Below are positions 8,306 to 49,718 of a stretch of DNA of 64,000 nucleotides, one piece after another. The stretch lies in NCBI GenBank assembly GCA_934378195.1, contig CAKRPO010000003.1:1-64000 (forward strand), written 5' to 3'. A model generated the notes under the pieces. The model worked only from the letters and a program-made list of their open reading frames with translations. It was not told the origin of the DNA and searched no databases. Each line of letters starts with the position of its first letter. Position 1 is the stretch's first letter. Position numbers and translations under genes: made by a program. This stretch comes from an uncultured Blautia sp. Its GTDB lineage: Bacteria; Bacillota; Clostridia; Lachnospirales; Lachnospiraceae.

Positions 8306-8890
8306 TTACTTCTGCATATTCAGGTATCCCTGAGTGGTATCTTCGATCAGGCGGTATATCAGTCTTGCGACCTGTTCGGGAGATTCATTTGTTGGGCAGG
8401 AGAGCCAGGTGCGAATCAGTCCCACACAGCCGTTCAGGATAAATGCATAAGGATACTTGATATTCGGATCATTCTTTGGAAATCTGTCCGGAAGCTGCTT
8501 CAAAAAAGTTTCTGCCAGAAGATTTTCAATCTGTTCCACAAAGGCCATATCACCGTGTGGTCCCAGAAGAGCCAGACAGAGATCCCTGTCATTGTCCATG
8601 ATTGAGAAGAACTGGACAATAAATTGCAGTACTGTGTCCGGATTGTCCGAGTTGATCGGATATTTTTTCATAACTTCTGTAATGTTCTGCATTGCATCTT
8701 CTTCAATCTTCTGCAGCATCTGATAGATGTCTGTATAATGTAAATAGAAGGTAGAACGGTTGATATCGACCTCATCTACCAGTTCTTTTACGGAAATTTC
8801 TTTGATACTTTTCTGTTGCATGAGCCGGGCAAGTCCTTCCCGGAGCTGTGCTTTCGTTTTGCGGACGCGGCGGTCCATTTTTTCTGCCAT
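8306..8890 (-). CDS. TetR/AcrR-family transcriptional regulator
   Basis: 194 residues. The N-terminal helix-turn-helix spans about 10-55 ('TKAQLREGLARLMQQKSIKEISVKELVDEVDINRSTFYLHY', shown in part), followed by a ligand-binding helical domain ending near 'LIRTWLSCPTNESPEQVARLIYRLI'. The start is placed at 8890, where GGGGGA lies about eight bases upstream; an ATG 66 bases further upstream has no ribosome site. It is divergent from the YhgE/Pip gene. An inverted repeat overlapping that gene's -10 box is the likely operator, so this protein probably represses the Pip gene and perhaps itself. The inducer is unknown. Confidence 0.88.
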   Translation of the reverse strand: MAEKMDRRVRKTKAQLREGLARLMQQKSIKEISVKELVDEVDINRSTFYLHYTDIYQMLQKIEEDAMQNITEVMKKYPINSDNPDTVLQFIVQFFSIMDNDRDLCLALLGPHGDMAFVEQIENLLAETFLKQLPDRFPKNDPNIKYPYAFILNGCVGLIRTWLSCPTNESPEQVARLIYRLIEDTTQGYLNMQK

Positions 8891-8949
8891 GTAAAAATCC
8901 CCCAATCTTTTTGCCAAAAACAAACAGGTTTTATGTAAAATGTCAATTT

Positions 8950-8978
8950 TTGACATCTAATAGACAAATATTTATGAT
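8950..8978 (+). promoter_or_regulatory. Promoter P1 of the YhgE/Pip gene
   Basis: Consensus TTGACA (8950-8955), 17-base spacer, TATGAT (8973-8978). The -35 is half of the palindrome TGTCAA-TTT-TTGACA (8941-8955). Confidence 0.7.
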
Positions 8979-16681: not shown

Positions 16682-16961
16682 GCACAAATAGATATAACTA
16701 AAAACTTTGATGGAGACAGTAAATCGGAATAAAATCTGCAGAGAGCCGGGAAAAGGTGGAAGCCTGGTGAGAGTCGTTTCGATGGAAGATCACTCCGGAG
16801 TTTCTTTCCTGAAATATGAAGCATATCAGTAAGGGAAGACGGTGTTTCCGCCGTTAAAGGGAACATGTATCGGCGTTTTATTACTACCGGCCCGTACAAT
16901 GTAACAGGTGGTGCGAATGTGAAAATTGCTTTCGTCCTTTTACAGGACGGAAGTTTTTTTT
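16682..16961 (+). ncRNA. T-box riboswitch (isoleucine) upstream of ileS
   Basis: A tRNA-sensing leader that allows transcription of ileS when uncharged tRNA-Ile accumulates. Visible elements: the GAGAG-type stem I segment (16739-16745), the specifier region ending 'GAAG-ATC-ACTCC', with codon ATC (Ile) at 16789-16791, the T-box sequence near 16902-16915 with the TGGT bulge that pairs with the tRNA acceptor end, and a terminator stem (16929-16937 with 16945-16953) followed by eight T residues. The T-box bulge match to the consensus is imperfect at its 3' side. The order, spacing and downstream gene make the assignment firm; the boundaries are approximate. Confidence 0.9.
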
Positions 16962-17006
16962 ATGTAACAGGATAATATCCTGTTACATAAAACGCTCCGC
17001 GAGCGA
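16960..17006 (+). repeat. Post-terminator palindromic repeat, copy 1
   Basis: Starts inside the T-tract of the T-box terminator. TATGTAACAGGATA and TATCCTGTTACATA form a 14-bp near-perfect palindrome, followed by AAACGCTCCGCGAG, which itself makes a CGCTC-CGC-GAGCG mini-hairpin. Copies at 32652 and 45666 share the outer stem and the CGCTCCGCGAG tail but have a longer, internally paired centre. Confidence 0.8.
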
Positions 17007-22847: not shown

Positions 22848-22897
22848 TCATAGAATTGGTGAATTCGTGGTTGATAGAAGGGGGAAGGCTGTCCTGT

Positions 22898-23124
22898 GTG
22901 GGGCAGGAATAATGATAAGAATTAAGAGGGAATCAGATATGATATGTCTGATTTCCTTTTTTGTATGTGAATACAGAGATTGAAAATTTAATATAAGTGA
23001 AGAATGTTTTGTGGGGTAGGAATAATGGTAAGAATTAAGAGGGAATCAGATATGGCATGTCTGGTTCTCTTTTTTGATATGTGAATACAGAGATTGAAAA
23101 TTTAATATAAGTGAAGAATGTTTT
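22898..23124 (+). repeat. Tandem duplication of a 113/114-bp unit carrying a terminator
   Basis: Unit 1 (22898-23010) and unit 2 (23011-23124) are nearly identical, with a few substitutions and one inserted base. Each contains a GGGAATCAGATAT/ATGTCTG-TTCC hairpin followed by six T residues (near 22927-22962 and 23040-23075). A third partial copy (GTGGGATTAGG) continues after unit 2 towards spmA. No open reading frame is supported in the 440 bases between glgP and spmA. Confidence 0.85.
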
Positions 23125-23189
23125 GTGGGATTAGGTGCAGGTGTGCAGGCATAGAATAGAGTGATGGCAGCGGGCTAAGGGGTAAGGGT

Positions 23190-23786: not shown

Positions 23787-23823
23787 ATAAAGTACGATAT
23801 GTGCTATCCTAAAAATGTTACCG

Positions 23824-23843
23824 CTTCCCACAGGTGCGGGAAG
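23824..23843 (+). promoter_or_regulatory. Hairpin masking the toxin ribosome site
   Basis: CTTCCC-N8-GGGAAG pairs directly before and into the AAGGAGGG ribosome site of the 28-residue gene. Sequestration of the toxin ribosome site by 5' structure is typical of type I toxin mRNAs. Confidence 0.5.
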
Positions 23844-23853
23844 GAGGGAAAAT

Positions 23854-23940
23854 ATGGACAGCATTGTTAGTTTTATAATCGCCGTTATGGCTGGTGTAGT
23901 GTGTCATTGCATCAACAAATGGTTGGATGGCGATAAATAG
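23854..23940 (+). CDS. Small holin-like hydrophobic peptide, candidate type I toxin
   Basis: 28 residues: MDSIVSFIIAVMAGVVC... followed by a charged end (KWLDGDK). One transmembrane helix (about 4-20) and a short polar C-terminus match the 'putative holin-like toxin' peptides annotated in Lachnospiraceae and the general form of type I toxins. A strong AAGGAGGG lies ten bases ahead of the ATG. The message ends at a bidirectional terminator, and a consensus promoter points at it from the other strand. The locus is flanked by 18-bp direct repeats. Toxicity is inferred from form and context only. Confidence 0.75.
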   Translation: MDSIVSFIIAVMAGVVCHCINKWLDGDK

Positions 23941-23986
23941 TTGGTGACCAGCCTGTGGTATAAGCCGCCACATTAAAATGGAATAG

Positions 23987-24018
23987 AAAAACCCTCGGAT
24001 CGCCCTCCGAGGGTTTTT
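23987..24018. terminator. Shared bidirectional terminator of toxin and antisense RNA
   Basis: AAAAACCCTCGGA and TCCGAGGGTTTTT form a near-perfect stem with A and T tracts on either side, so it can end transcripts from both directions. Confidence 0.88.
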
Positions 24019-24057
24019 CGTTTCCTTTAGGTACTTGGATAGCATCATTAAGTTTCT
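23987..24057 (-). ncRNA. Predicted short antisense RNA (candidate antitoxin)
   Basis: Transcription from the minus-strand promoter at 24064-24092 would start near 24057 and stop at the shared terminator, giving about 70 nt. Its overlap with the toxin mRNA is the terminator region, the convergent arrangement seen in Fst/par-type loci. The end points are predicted, not observed. Confidence 0.5.
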
Positions 24058-31866: not shown

Positions 31867-32562
31867 ATGATGAATGATTTTTCTGTAGACATGAATGAAT
31901 ATCTGCCATTACGTGATGTCGTTTTTAATACACTTCGTAAAGCAATTTTAAAAGGCGAGCTGAAACCTGGTGAGCGACTTATGGAAATCGCACTTGCAGA
32001 GCGTCTTGGTGTCAGCAGGACTCCGGTCAGGGAAGCCATGCGTAAGCTGGAACTGGAAGGCCTGGTCGTGATGATTCCCCGCAGAGGCGCACAGGTTGCC
32101 AATATTACGGAGAAAGATCTGAATGACGTACTCGAAGTCCGTATGGCGCTGGAAAATCTTTCTATTGAGAATGCCTGTGCACGTATGACGGATGAGCAGC
32201 TGGATGAGCTGTGGAAAGCGGCCAAGAATTTTGAAGCGACAATGGCAGAGGGGAATCTTGTTAAGCTTGCCGAGGCAGACGTCGCATTTCATGAAGTGAT
32301 CTACAAGTCTTCTGATAACAGACGACTGAATCAGGTCCTGAATAATCTTCGTGAGCAGATTTACCGTTATCGTGTAGAGTATCTGAAGGATGAGGAGACC
32401 AGAAATCTTCTTGTCAAAGAACATGAGGAGATTTATGAGGCAATCCGTAACCGCGATGTGAAGCAGGCACAGGAGATTTCCTATCAGCATATTGAGAATC
32501 AGCGTGAGGCGATCATTCGTTCTATTCGTGAGGAGACACAGAGTCGTCAGATTCGCAAATGA
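31867..32562 (+). CDS. GntR/FadR-family (FCD) transcriptional regulator
   Basis: 231 residues: an N-terminal winged helix (about 12-75, 'GERLMEIALAERLGVSRTPV') and an FCD ligand-binding domain with His/Asp metal-site residues ('DVAFHEVIY', 'EHEEIYEAI', 'HIENQ'). AGAAGGGGG precedes the ATG. It follows ispE closely and is followed by a terminator. FCD regulators usually sense small carboxylates; the target is unknown. Confidence 0.88.
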   Translation: MMNDFSVDMNEYLPLRDVVFNTLRKAILKGELKPGERLMEIALAERLGVSRTPVREAMRKLELEGLVVMIPRRGAQVANITEKDLNDVLEVRMALENLSIENACARMTDEQLDELWKAAKNFEATMAEGNLVKLAEADVAFHEVIYKSSDNRRLNQVLNNLREQIYRYRVEYLKDEETRNLLVKEHEEIYEAIRNRDVKQAQEISYQHIENQREAIIRSIREETQSRQIRK

Positions 32563-32619
32563 TGGAATATCAGATGTGAGGCCGGTACACACATAAAATT
32601 CTATAATCTGGTTATTCTA

Positions 32620-32654
32620 AAAGAGATGCATAAAGTACATGTGTCTCTTTTTTT
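32620..32654 (+). terminator. Terminator of the ispE-gntR operon
   Basis: AGAGATGCAT...ATGTGTCTCT stem followed by seven T residues. The T-tract runs into repeat copy 2. Confidence 0.7.
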
Positions 32655-32711
32655 ATGTAATAGGAAATTACTGCGTAATGTTCCTATTACATAAAAACGC
32701 TCCGCGAGGAT
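32652..32711 (+). repeat. Post-terminator palindromic repeat, copy 2
   Basis: Outer arms TATGTAATAGGAA (32654-32666) and TTCCTATTACATA (32681-32693) enclose ATTAC-TGC-GTAAT, giving one long hairpin, then AAAACGCTCCGCGAGGATG. Compared with copies 1 and 3, differences in the arms occur in pairs that keep the stem. It lies between the terminator and the gerA operon. Confidence 0.85.
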
Positions 32712-32738
32712 GTTACAGGAATATTTCAGGAGGAGATA

Positions 32739-44111: not shown

Positions 44112-45605
44112 ATGGATAAGAGGGTATTGCGCGAACGAATGCGCAAAAAACAACAGCAGATAAGACGCCGCCAGATGATGAAAAAAGGTGCGTATATTGT
44201 CGCTATAATCCTCGTATTTGTATTTGTGATACGAGGAATCATCCTTCCGGTTATTAACAGAGTCGGAGGAAAAAATGTCGAGAAACCGGCACAGGTACAG
44301 GCAGAGACAGATACAAATACAGATATATCCGGTGATACCGGCACGGAGACGCAGAGTGAGAAAAATACAAATGCGGCAATACGTAAGCCGCTGAAGGGCA
44401 AGAGTGATCTTACAAAGGCATCACAGCTTACTGCAGGATGGCACGAGGATGAGAGTGGTAAATGGTATCAGAATGCGGATGGTACATATTATGCAGGCGG
44501 TTTGCAGGACATTGACGGATCTACCTATTATTTCAGTGATAATGGTTATGCGCAGACCGGCTGGGTAAGTGTTGGATTTGATGATTATTATTTCAATGAT
44601 GATGGTACATATGATCCAAGTCAGCACAAGACCAGAATTGCCTTTACATTTGATGATGGTCCGGGAGAATATACAGATGAACTTCTGGATTGCCTGGAAG
44701 AGAACAATGCACATGCAACATTCTTTATGCTGGGACAGAATGTAGCGAGCTGGCAGTCAGAAGTACAGAGGATGGTAGATATCGGATGTGAGATCGGAAG
44801 TCATTCCTGGGATCATCCGAATCTGTATGAACTGGATATGGACAGTGTCGCAAAACAGTTTAATGATACAGATGCTGCACTGGAAGCTGCGTGTGGACAG
44901 AAGGCAAGCGTGGCACGAGCACCGTATGGAAACTGGAGTGATGATATTATCTCTACAGTCAATAAACCGTTTTTTACATGGTCTCTGGATTCTATGGACT
45001 GGAGTTATCTGGATGTCAATAAGGATTATGATGCGGTTATGAATGGAGACCTTACAGATGGATCGATCATTCTGATGCATGATATTCATGAACCTTCTGT
45101 TCAGGCTGCGATCAAAATGATCCCTGAACTTGTACAGAAGGGATACAAGCTGATGACAGTCAGCGAACTGGCAGCAGCAAAAGGTGTTGATCTGCAGATG
45201 GCAAACTACTCCGATTTCTGGGACAGTTCACTTCAGAAAGGAATCGTTGCAGGATATAATGGCAATTCCTCTGATGGAAGCAGTGACAGTACAGATGGCT
45301 CAGATTCTTCCACATCGGATGAAAGTTCTGATGACGGATCGGATGTAAGTGATACAGGATCTTCTGATGGCAGCGATATCAGCGATGGAAGTGACAGCAG
45401 TTCCGACAGCTCTTCCGGAGATGGAAGTTCCGGAGATGACAGTTCCGATGACTCGTCCGGAGATGACAGTTCATCCGATGACAGCTCAGACGACAGCTAC
45501 GGCTCTGACGGATCAGATGATGGTTCCTATGACGACAGTTCTGGAGATGGAAGTGATTATGCGGATGAAGATTCCGGAGATGGAAGCTATGATACCGGAT
45601 ATTAA
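44112..45605 (+). CDS. Polysaccharide deacetylase with wall-binding repeats and Ser/Asp tail
   Basis: 497 residues: basic N-terminus, transmembrane helix (about 25-45), choline-binding-like aromatic repeats (about 110-165, 'GKWYQNADGTYYAGG', 'GSTYYFSDNGYAQTGW'), a NodB deacetylase domain (about 175-375) with 'FTFDDGPGEYTDELL' (catalytic Asp pair) and 'GSHSWDHPN' (metal His pair), and a C-terminal tail of about 100 residues made mostly of Ser, Asp and Gly. The enzyme is probably a peptidoglycan GlcNAc deacetylase giving lysozyme resistance. The tail is a low-complexity SD repeat like those of surface stalks but has no LPXTG sorting signal. Confidence 0.9.
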   Translation: MDKRVLRERMRKKQQQIRRRQMMKKGAYIVAIILVFVFVIRGIILPVINRVGGKNVEKPAQVQAETDTNTDISGDTGTETQSEKNTNAAIRKPLKGKSDLTKASQLTAGWHEDESGKWYQNADGTYYAGGLQDIDGSTYYFSDNGYAQTGWVSVGFDDYYFNDDGTYDPSQHKTRIAFTFDDGPGEYTDELLDCLEENNAHATFFMLGQNVASWQSEVQRMVDIGCEIGSHSWDHPNLYELDMDSVAKQFNDTDAALEAACGQKASVARAPYGNWSDDIISTVNKPFFTWSLDSMDWSYLDVNKDYDAVMNGDLTDGSIILMHDIHEPSVQAAIKMIPELVQKGYKLMTVSELAAAKGVDLQMANYSDFWDSSLQKGIVAGYNGNSSDGSSDSTDGSDSSTSDESSDDGSDVSDTGSSDGSDISDGSDSSSDSSSGDGSSGDDSSDDSSGDDSSSDDSSDDSYGSDGSDDGSYDDSSGDGSDYADEDSGDGSYDTGY

Positions 45606-45621
45606 GTACATATGATTTTAA

Positions 45622-45668
45622 CAAAAGAGGACAGGTTTGACAAAATGGTCAGCCAGGTCCTCTTTTTT
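45622..45668 (+). terminator. Terminator of the third deacetylase gene
   Basis: AAAAGAGGAC and GTCCTCTTTT form the base of a hairpin followed by T residues; the T-tract continues into repeat copy 3. Confidence 0.85.
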
Positions 45669-45727
45669 ATGCAATAGGAAATTACTCCGTAATGTTCCTA
45701 TTGCATAAAAACGCTCCGCGAGGATGC
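45666..45727 (+). repeat. Post-terminator palindromic repeat, copy 3
   Basis: TATGCAATAGGAA (45668-45680), ATTAC-TCC-GTAAT, then TTCCTATTGCATA (45695-45707) and AAAACGCTCCGCGAGGATGCG. The arm change GTAA to GCAA relative to copy 2 is matched by TTAC to TTGC in the other arm. Downstream is the glgB promoter. Confidence 0.85.
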
Positions 45728-45778
45728 GACCAGAATCACAAATGATTTTGATGTTGTACATAGTATCGCTTATTTTAA

Positions 45779-48432: not shown

Positions 48433-48473
48433 AACATGTCTTGCCTTCAGGCAGAAAGAGAGGAAATGCAATT

Positions 48474-49718
48474 ATGGAAAGAACAAAAATTGACATTATC
48501 TCCGGCTTTCTTGGAGCCGGTAAAACAACACTGATCAAGAAACTTCTGAAAGACGCTTTTCAGGGGGAGCAGGTTGTTTTGATTGAGAATGAATTTGGTG
48601 AGATCGGTATCGATGGTGGATTTCTCAAAGAAGCAGGTATTGAGATCCGTGAAATGAATTCCGGTTGTATCTGCTGCTCGCTGGTTGGTGATTTTGGTGC
48701 ATCTCTGAAAGAAGTCATCAGCAAATATCATCCGGACAGAATCCTGATCGAGCCATCCGGTGTCGGTAAATTATCTGATGTCATCAAAGCAGTACAGGGT
48801 GTGGAAGAAGAAACAGGACTGGTCCTGAACAGCTATACAACGGTAGTCGATGCAAAGAAATGCAAAATGTATATGAGAAACTTTGGTGAATTCTTTAATA
48901 ACCAGGTTGAATATGCCGGCGCGATCATCATGAGCCGTACAGACATTGTTGATGAAGCAAAAGCACAGGCATCTCTGGAACTTCTTCGTGAGATCAACTC
49001 CAAAGCTGCAATCATTACAACACCGATCGAGAAACTGGAAGGAAAGAAATTGCTTGAAGTTATGGAACATCCGGTATCTCTGGCAGATGAACTTCTGGCA
49101 GAAGAGGAAGTTTGCCCGGAATGTGGACATGTGCATGAACATGGAGAACATCACCATCATGATCACGATCATGAAGAACATGAGCATCATCATCACGACC
49201 ATGATGAAGAATGTGGATGTGGACACGACCACGAAGAGCATGAACACCATCATCACGATCATGACCATGAATGTGGATGCGGACACGACCACGAAGAGCA
49301 TGAGCATCATCATCACGATCATGACCATGAATGTGGATGCGGACATGACCACGATCATGAAGACCACGAACACCATCATCACGATCATGACCATGAATGC
49401 GGCTGTGGACATGATCATCATGACCATCACCATCATCATGCAGATGAAGTGTTCACAAGCTGGGGACGTGAGACAATTAAGAAATATACAAGAGAAAACC
49501 TTGAGAAGATGCTGGAAGCACTTTCTGCATCTGATGAATATGGAATCATCCTTCGTGCAAAAGGAATGCTCCCTGCAGAAGATGGAACATGGATCTATTT
49601 TGACATGGTTCCGGAAGAAACAGAGATTCGTGAGGGTGCACCGGAATATACCGGTCGTCTCTGCGTAATCGGATCCAAACTGAAAGAGGACAAACTGGCT
49701 GAGCTTTTTGGCCTGTAA
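48474..49718 (+). CDS. COG0523 (CobW/ZigA-type) GTPase with extreme His/Cys-rich metal-binding region
   Basis: 414 residues from ATG 48474. G3E GTPase: Walker A 'GFLGAGKTTLIKKLL' (9-23), 'NEFGEIGIDGG', the metal-binding CxCC motif in 'SGCICCSLVGDF', and 'PSGVGKLSD'. Between the GTPase core and the C-terminal CobW domain (about 325-410) is a block (about 220-325) of 20-residue repeats, mainly His, Asp and Glu with an embedded CGCG. The family includes zinc and other metal chaperones. The block could hold many metal ions, consistent with storage or buffering. The next gene also encodes a GTPase related to this pathway. Confidence 0.9.
   Translation: MERTKIDIISGFLGAGKTTLIKKLLKDAFQGEQVVLIENEFGEIGIDGGFLKEAGIEIREMNSGCICCSLVGDFGASLKEVISKYHPDRILIEPSGVGKLSDVIKAVQGVEEETGLVLNSYTTVVDAKKCKMYMRNFGEFFNNQVEYAGAIIMSRTDIVDEAKAQASLELLREINSKAAIITTPIEKLEGKKLLEVMEHPVSLADELLAEEEVCPECGHVHEHGEHHHHDHDHEEHEHHHHDHDEECGCGHDHEEHEHHHHDHDHECGCGHDHEEHEHHHHDHDHECGCGHDHDHEDHEHHHHDHDHECGCGHDHHDHHHHHADEVFTSWGRETIKKYTRENLEKMLEALSASDEYGIILRAKGMLPAEDGTWIYFDMVPEETEIREGAPEYTGRLCVIGSKLKEDKLAELFGL
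49170..49440 (+). repeat. In-frame 60-bp tandem repeat coding for His/Cys-rich units
   Basis: Three 60-bp units (49170, 49230, 49290), one 66-bp unit (49350) and a partial unit encode HEEHEHHHHDHDHECGCGHD-type repeats. Units 2 and 3 are almost identical at DNA level, so copy number can change by slippage or recombination without breaking the frame. Confidence 0.85.

Follow-up and report, generated by a model that had tools for sequence, protein, structure and literature searches.

Group IIC introns take hairpins, for example those of terminators, as insertion sites and pair over a short stretch with the target, as described in the part of PMC3898094 that was available. Members of the IS200/IS605 family, among them IS608, have subterminal hairpins and choose their target by base-pairing (accessible portions of PMC5934647 and PMC6006769). 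The REP and REPIN sequences associated with TnpA-REP (RAYT) are short, palindromic and non-autonomous, and occur in many copies between genes (PMC3116915, in the extract consulted). Bacterial MITEs, as well as the BOX, RUP and SPRITE elements of pneumococcus, are small, structured and non-coding and insert into one another; SPRITE was named after its terminator-like sequence (both according to the available text of PMC10969869). In addition, PMC8040213 (in the part accessible to us) describes 250 palindromic RNA candidates from the human microbiome, 230 of which are terminator-like. Short mobile repeats as such are already known in many bacteria.

The Lachnospiraceae element described here shares with each of these mobile families the properties just named, and group IIC introns, with their hairpin or terminator target and short base-pairing, are its closest parallel in way of working. 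It differs from group II introns in giving no match to the Rfam group II models at the loci examined, in having its own terminator-like 3′ end, and in encoding no reverse transcriptase, for which its 130-180 nt leave no room. Unlike REP/RAYT it is an asymmetric unit (a palindrome P1, a linker, and two further stems P2 and P3) with a terminator as target, and a Y1 transposase is lacking in three of the ten hosts searched. Unlike IS200/IS605 it carries no transposase gene, and a Y1 partner was not found in the genomes searched. MITEs, BOX, RUP and SPRITE, the last three likened to it by description only, differ in that the element has the terminator itself as insertion site; a target duplication was not evident in two filled/empty pairs, where T-runs blur the left edge. 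The two ends of full copies, compared by eye for terminal inverted repeats, are not inverted repeats of each other; the P1 palindrome lies at one end. For each of MITEs, REP/IS200 elements and group II introns, a defining feature was looked for and found to be lacking. The preliminary description held that it matches nothing known. In an Rfam search no family reached its gathering score on the element in the window and nine further loci, and six more loci searched at E<=5 gave only low-scoring matches, none of them credible. No description was found in the open-licence literature searched; it is possible that an unnamed match is present among the candidates of PMC8040213.

The window, which is the whole stretch of 64,000 nucleotides analysed, contains three copies. 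Re-reading of the sequence found them and their shared arms where the preliminary description placed them (16960-17006, 32652-32711 and 45666-45727), and together with a hairpin test it confirmed that each begins inside the T-tract of an intrinsic terminator, belonging to a T-box, a gntR gene and a deacetylase gene, respectively. The exact sequence AACGCTCCGCGAG is found at 16991, 32696 and 45710, always on the + strand. When up to two mismatches are allowed there are five sites in the window against 0.54 expected, a number that none of 100 shuffles reached. Copies 2 and 3 are 91% identical across 74 nt.

All features given in the following for the three copies lie on the + strand. Copy 1 follows the T-box leader of ileS at 16698..16942 (Rfam RF00230, E 2.5e-20; 90.1 bits, slightly below the gathering score of 93). 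Its target is the host terminator hairpin with T-run at 16929..16961, identified from the sequence and the hairpin test, and relatives without the element also have both. The P1 palindrome (16958..16992), whose outer pairs are formed with the host T-run, is followed by the conserved linker CGCTCCGCGAG at 16993..17003, where the copy is truncated; P2 and P3 are missing. For the ileS gene downstream 300 residues were tested, and they contain a class I tRNA synthetase domain. Copy 2 is located between a GntR/FCD regulator gene (31867-32562) and gerA. It uses the terminator behind the regulator gene at 32619..32654, found in a terminator scan and bare of the element in the relatives G427 and G001, and consists of P1 (32650..32697, outer pairs again with the host T-run) and the linker CGCTCCGCGAGGATG (32698..32712), where it is truncated. 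Copy 3 lies between a polysaccharide deacetylase gene (44112-45605) and glgB. Its target is the terminator at 45627..45668, as judged from the sequence, the hairpin test and relatives; P1, with outer pairs to the host T-run, spans 45664..45711, and the linker CGCTCCGCGAGGATG and the start of P2 (CGACCAGA) span 45712..45734, where homology to a full Blautia copy stops. The upstream features (the T-box by Rfam, the GntR/FCD regulator and the polysaccharide deacetylase) and the downstream genes (ileS, gerA and glgB) had been named correctly beforehand. It had also been proposed that the copies point the same way as the next gene. This is true in the window and does not hold in general, since among 62 intergenic copies 44 share the direction of the next ORF and 18 run against it, a count that rests on a simple ORF caller. 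The window copies end after GCGAG, GGATG and GATGCGACCAGA; because all three are truncated, the element exceeds the length that they suggest.

A full copy of about 130-180 nt reads, from the host T-tract on, P1, the linker CGCTCCGCGAGGATG, P2, GCGC, P3 and a T-rich end. P1 is a palindrome that pairs with the host T-tract through its A-rich right arm. P2 is a bulged stem made up of 7-9 bp, a bulge of 10-12 nt on one side, which often contains GGAA or GAAGAT, and a hairpin of 4-6 bp, while P3 is a terminator-like hairpin that is longer and branched in Blautia and Clostridium aminophilum. For the groups of G001, G004/G005 and G009/G010 the 3′ end is TTTGTTC, and elsewhere it is TTTCTT, TTTTTT or another sequence. 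Scanning genome contigs with a pattern gave at least 118 stretches, among which reading separated true copies from apparent chance matches in unrelated organisms; among the matches listed, the P1 palindrome is present in 48 distinct ones and absent from 69, and in some of these 69 the left arm has been lost. Some copies are in tandem, the next one beginning directly behind the P3 of another. Inside the P2 bulge of G009 and G010 another palindromic repeat of the ACTAAGC...GCTAAGT type was observed (L130 at 120-445, L142, and L153 at 8600-8960).

The preliminary description noted that differences between the arms of the window copies are matched on both sides, and this extends to other copies, where P1 and P2 pairs show more such changes than shuffled sequences do. 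For 27 sequences of P1 plus linker, both-side changes are found at 9 of the 17 P1 pairs, and 96.5% of the P1 cells pair, the share being 85.4% in shuffles and 43-60% with a slid arm; 14 further pair types were counted, a number reached in 6 of 500 shuffles. A scripted search detected the P2 fold in 48 of the 101 distinct copies that carry the linker; among segments shuffled by single letters it did so in 4 of 505. Across 23 distinct P2 stems 80 cells are changed on both sides (shuffle mean 22, maximum 33), and 159 of 161 cells pair, in part by construction, as the choice of stems was guided by their pairing. Extra pair types in P2 number 24, which is within the range of its shuffles (maximum 27). 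Of the 48 copies with P2, 39 have a perfect hairpin of 6 bp or more with T's behind it, an uncontrolled count in which a few are clearly other hairpins than P3. The linker is nearly invariant across the 101 copies. These were collected with a pattern that fixed its first eight letters and constrained three later ones, and therefore only the remaining letters count as evidence of conservation. Because MAFFT alignments misplaced the 3′ half, only P1 and the linker were modelled (the covariance model R1), and P2 was counted by script.

Such features could be taken as those of a host-serving structured RNA or attenuator, selected behind terminators and immobile. The pairing of P1 and P2 is retained with many paired changes, the linker is nearly invariant (its first eight letters and a few later ones being the search key), and copies are found within the ileS T-box leader of several Blautia. 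Kept pairing through paired changes does not, however, alone prove a host function, and close relatives lack the element at the same terminators, the genes next to the three window copies are unrelated, tandem copies exist, and 53 of the 101 linker-bearing copies have no detectable P2. A host RNA of this kind is thus highly improbable, and we take the palindromes of the window to be, probably, truncated copies of a non-coding, non-autonomous mobile family of the Lachnospiraceae that has intrinsic terminators as its target.

The link to terminators, which the preliminary description had drawn from three copies, was confirmed when distances were tabulated. For 72 of 85 unique copies the T-run lies no more than 3 nt from the end of a hairpin with -6 kcal/mol or better, compared to 142 of 600 control T6-runs (p 6e-28); the 85 were tested out of 86 unique sense copies and are not fully independent, because some are orthologous between G009 and G010. 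When z<-2 is added to the 3-nt rule, 62 of the 85 copies and 55 of the 600 controls pass. Random positions pass the hairpin rule in 101 of 400 cases, 19 of 400 having z<-2. A set of palindrome-bearing copies independent of both R1 and the T-run gave, among the matches listed, a T-run of at least 4 in 34 of 48, a hairpin directly before in 36 of 48 and z<-2 in 32 of 48, the contrary cases being 14 with a T-run under 4 and 12 with no hairpin by the test. In loci of at least 3 kb, which a simple ORF caller finds to be 87% coding, 62 of 79 copies are intergenic and 17 overlap an ORF. The terminator hairpin and T-tract make up the type of target that group IIC introns use, a likeness of target alone.

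Occupied terminators also seem to differ from free ones. Their T-runs are 6-8 long in 53 of 69 cases, while 164 of 212 free ones have 4-5 (free ones were required to have at least 4, and R1 favours long runs), and the letter after the T-run is C in 6 of 69 occupied against 15 of 48 free T6+ terminators (p 0.003; R1 may disfavour C there). Because R1 includes the T-tract and the A or G that follows, both the T-run lengths and the scarcity of C are partly selected for. For 100 copies, the base opposite the first non-A letter of the arm is A in 75, G in 21, C in 2 and T in 2, T being disfavoured by the definition of this base. In 87 of these copies this base and the arm are complementary.

The agreement between the outer arm and the T-tract in most copies was the reason why a right arm templated by the host was initially favoured as the rule. 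A related proposal is that P1 has been perfected by template switching during replication (quasipalindrome correction), a process described in the available part of PMC8794818; the paired changes of P1 would then be uninformative on RNA function, and the proposal is compatible with a mobile element. Within six genomes the outer dinucleotides of the arms co-vary as it predicts, matching in 45 of 55 cases (shuffle mean 32.7, maximum 41; none of 2000 shuffles as high). On the other hand, P2 varies by whole different stems, a mismatch is retained at the base discussed above in 13 of 100 copies, and at the ileS site of L262 the host has A after the T-run where the arm has C, the empty relative L270 also having A. 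The comparison of L262 with L270 suggests that the base after the T-run is the host's and that the arm arrived with the element, mismatched. In consequence of L262/L270 and the 13 mismatches the host-templated arm was abandoned as the rule, and target choice by pairing is preferred. Template switching remains a fair way short of probable as the source of the P1 agreement; the arm and target data fit target choice by tolerant pairing, to which it could contribute. We infer that targeting has a base-pairing basis.

The covariance-model search that had been suggested for related Lachnospiraceae showed that the element is widespread, the paired changes in P1 having been counted in the 27 sequences above. 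From the family to which G001 (Blautia sp. Marseille-P3087, hence Lachnospiraceae) belongs, 397 genomes were drawn, and R1 gave matches at E<=1e-6 in 178 of them, with 13 candidates scored per genome; six of the 14 trial genomes are included among the 397. All 14 trial genomes, picked as carriers of the element, were matched. At E<=1e-3 no match was found in 40 genomes outside Clostridia, with up to 137 candidates scored; this set is made up of genomes in which the pattern had matched by chance, and it includes three Bacilli and no Clostridia. The R1 totals (41 for G001 and 149 for G005) are not copy counts, as the opposite strand of the palindrome also matches and at most 150 candidates were scored per genome. 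Copy number was therefore taken from the listed distinct places, and at E<=2.2e-15 there are at least 56 in G005, at least 31 in G004 and at least 22 in G009. Hosts of true copies include Blautia, Eubacterium ramulus, Clostridium aminophilum, Anaerostipes, Clostridium fessum and MAGs of Lachnospiraceae and Clostridia. Among the new loci from the family search P1 adjoins an exact CGCTCCGC in 16 of 24, and the arms vary among species yet pair in each. Partial matches to a Blautia copy were also found in one plasmid and two unannotated phage records.

If the element is mobile, terminators with and without it should be found at the same place in relatives, and the comparison of orthologous intergenic regions revealed that the sites are not all filled and that terminators are kept while the element is absent. 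The closest relatives, G427 and G001, show this at each of the three sites of the window, G001 possibly retaining a remnant at ileS. At the copy 2 site both have the same terminator, with the T-run passing straight into a leader of their own, and at the copy 3 site G427 has kept the terminator, the shared promoter region beginning 14 nt after the T-run. The exact linker core was found in none of 16 loci for the glgB site, many of which have a different upstream gene, and in none of 15 for the gntR site.

The ileS site of copy 1 was matched in 57 of 64 genomes of the Blautia genus, and 30 loci were compared. The terminator is bare in 11 (L256, L257, L259, L260, L261, L264, L266, L270, L271, L272 and L275), and the linker is present in two, L262 with a full copy and L267 with an internally deleted one. 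Three loci of the Blautia genus (L250, L252 and L253) have a P1-like palindrome with a long centre and no linker, perhaps a further variant. Thirteen loci were left unclassed, among them that of G427 (L247), where a short AT-rich stretch may represent an empty or a decayed site; the site in G001 (L248) looks like a decayed remnant. Other Blautia thus have insertions of their own at the ileS terminator, as in L262 (filled) compared to L270 (bare). Between G009 and G010, both C. aminophilum, two filled/empty pairs were read by eye, several other sites being too diverged. No target-site duplication is evident in these two pairs, where T-runs blur the left edge. Some of the empty sites (that of G427 at ileS and the C4 site in G010) could be deletions rather than sites never filled. 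An orthologous copy in L104 and L122 differs by the loss of P2-P3 in a way that fits deletion between short matches, so truncation can follow insertion.

Of the two early proposals, the first was a small mobile palindrome with T-tracts as its target, and it is supported by the empty and filled terminators, by the many copies, and by the link to terminators, including that in the T-run-free set. The second, a functional RNA, retains a small probability in view of the paired changes that preserve pairing in P1 and P2. Like MITEs the element is non-coding, below about 500 bp, present in many copies and, judging from the filled and empty sites, mobile. It may move as a folded single strand of DNA or RNA, acted on in trans by an enzyme. 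The target would be chosen by the terminator hairpin and by pairing of the YAAAAA arm of the element with the TTTTTR tract of the host, and joining to the T-tract would create the outer part of P1. The terminator at the end of the element would permit insertion without loss of termination, and copies may shrink through later deletions, which one orthologous pair fits. More tentatively, the element might represent a new mobile class addressed by terminators, where the hairpin is the site, the A-rich arm pairs with the T-tract, and copies nest from terminator to terminator because the element's own terminator can become the next target; the enzyme would then lie outside four families that were searched for. 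We hold this to be a reasonable possibility that falls short of an even chance.

These families are Y1_Tnp, RVT_1, DEDD_Tnp_IS110 and TnpB, and none of them was found in every element-bearing genome searched. The survey excludes no family for certain, as several genomes are drafts and an enzyme may be lost after the element has spread. DEDD_Tnp_IS110, the recombinase that an IS110 bridge-RNA element would need in its hosts, was above the cut-off in only 6 of 12 element-bearing genomes, G402 giving no match, and TnpB (Cas12f1-like_TNB) was likewise found in only 6 of 12. Weak DEDD_Tnp_IS110 matches were also observed in ORFs of 1404-1447 amino acids in 8 of 12 genomes, a length which we take to be that of Cas9. 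Separated heads and tails were sought in the loci of three genome groups, where no longer, autonomous copy was found. The split copies of L130 and L153 in C. aminophilum were considered as such and rejected, the insert being the other repeat in P2 mentioned above.

An element of the IS200/IS605 type moved by a Y1 (HUH) transposase, as REP and REPIN are, would explain the hairpins near the ends, the lack of a visible target duplication and the strand-specific insertion. PATE elements provide another likeness. Pairing-based choice of the target is also found in IS608 (PMC5934647, accessible part). Against this, Y1_Tnp (PF01797) is absent from G001, G005 and G013, three of the ten element-bearing genomes searched, and the linker, even in a relaxed version, is found in only one of 28 Y1 loci, so that we regard movement by Y1 as very unlikely.

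The element could also be a SINE-like parasite of the reverse transcriptase of a group IIC intron, with which it would share the kind of target, the orientation and an A-rich stretch that reads the T-tract. Such introns use a DNA hairpin, for instance that of a terminator, and a short IBS (PMC3898094, available part), and in G010 a group II intron with its reverse transcriptase lies within the P1 of an element (L290, about 735-2650; G010:C2), directly after TTTTTATG; element and group II intron can therefore use the same kind of site. A similar intron is located behind another terminator in L280. However, RVT_1 is absent from five of 12 element-bearing genomes (G003, G005, G006, G248 and G402, several of them drafts or MAGs), and in the loci searched none of the Rfam group II models matched the element. 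RVT_1 is present in five of eight genomes without R1 matches. Dependence on a group IIC intron is accordingly judged unlikely, and a mobile family directed to terminators, presumably moved by an enzyme in trans, is the reading that we retain.

By settling mostly behind terminators, folding, and bringing its own terminator-like end, the element would represent a new route to spread that leaves genes intact. Within a family of abundant gut bacteria it is common, making 3′ ends and a T-box leader differ from one species to another, and it could by mistake pass for a regulatory RNA. It also provides a clear test case for target choice by base-pairing and invites a search for the enzyme that moves it.

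Three further observations were made in the window. The Rfam family SpF66_sRNA matches 23817-24031 on the + strand with 43.2 bits (gathering score 42), the host being far from Streptococcus. At 22897-23129 there is a tandem duplication of about 113 nt which contains a hairpin followed by T's. At 48441-49718, on the + strand, a CobW-family protein is encoded that has a long insert of His/Asp-rich repeats, for which metal binding is possible.
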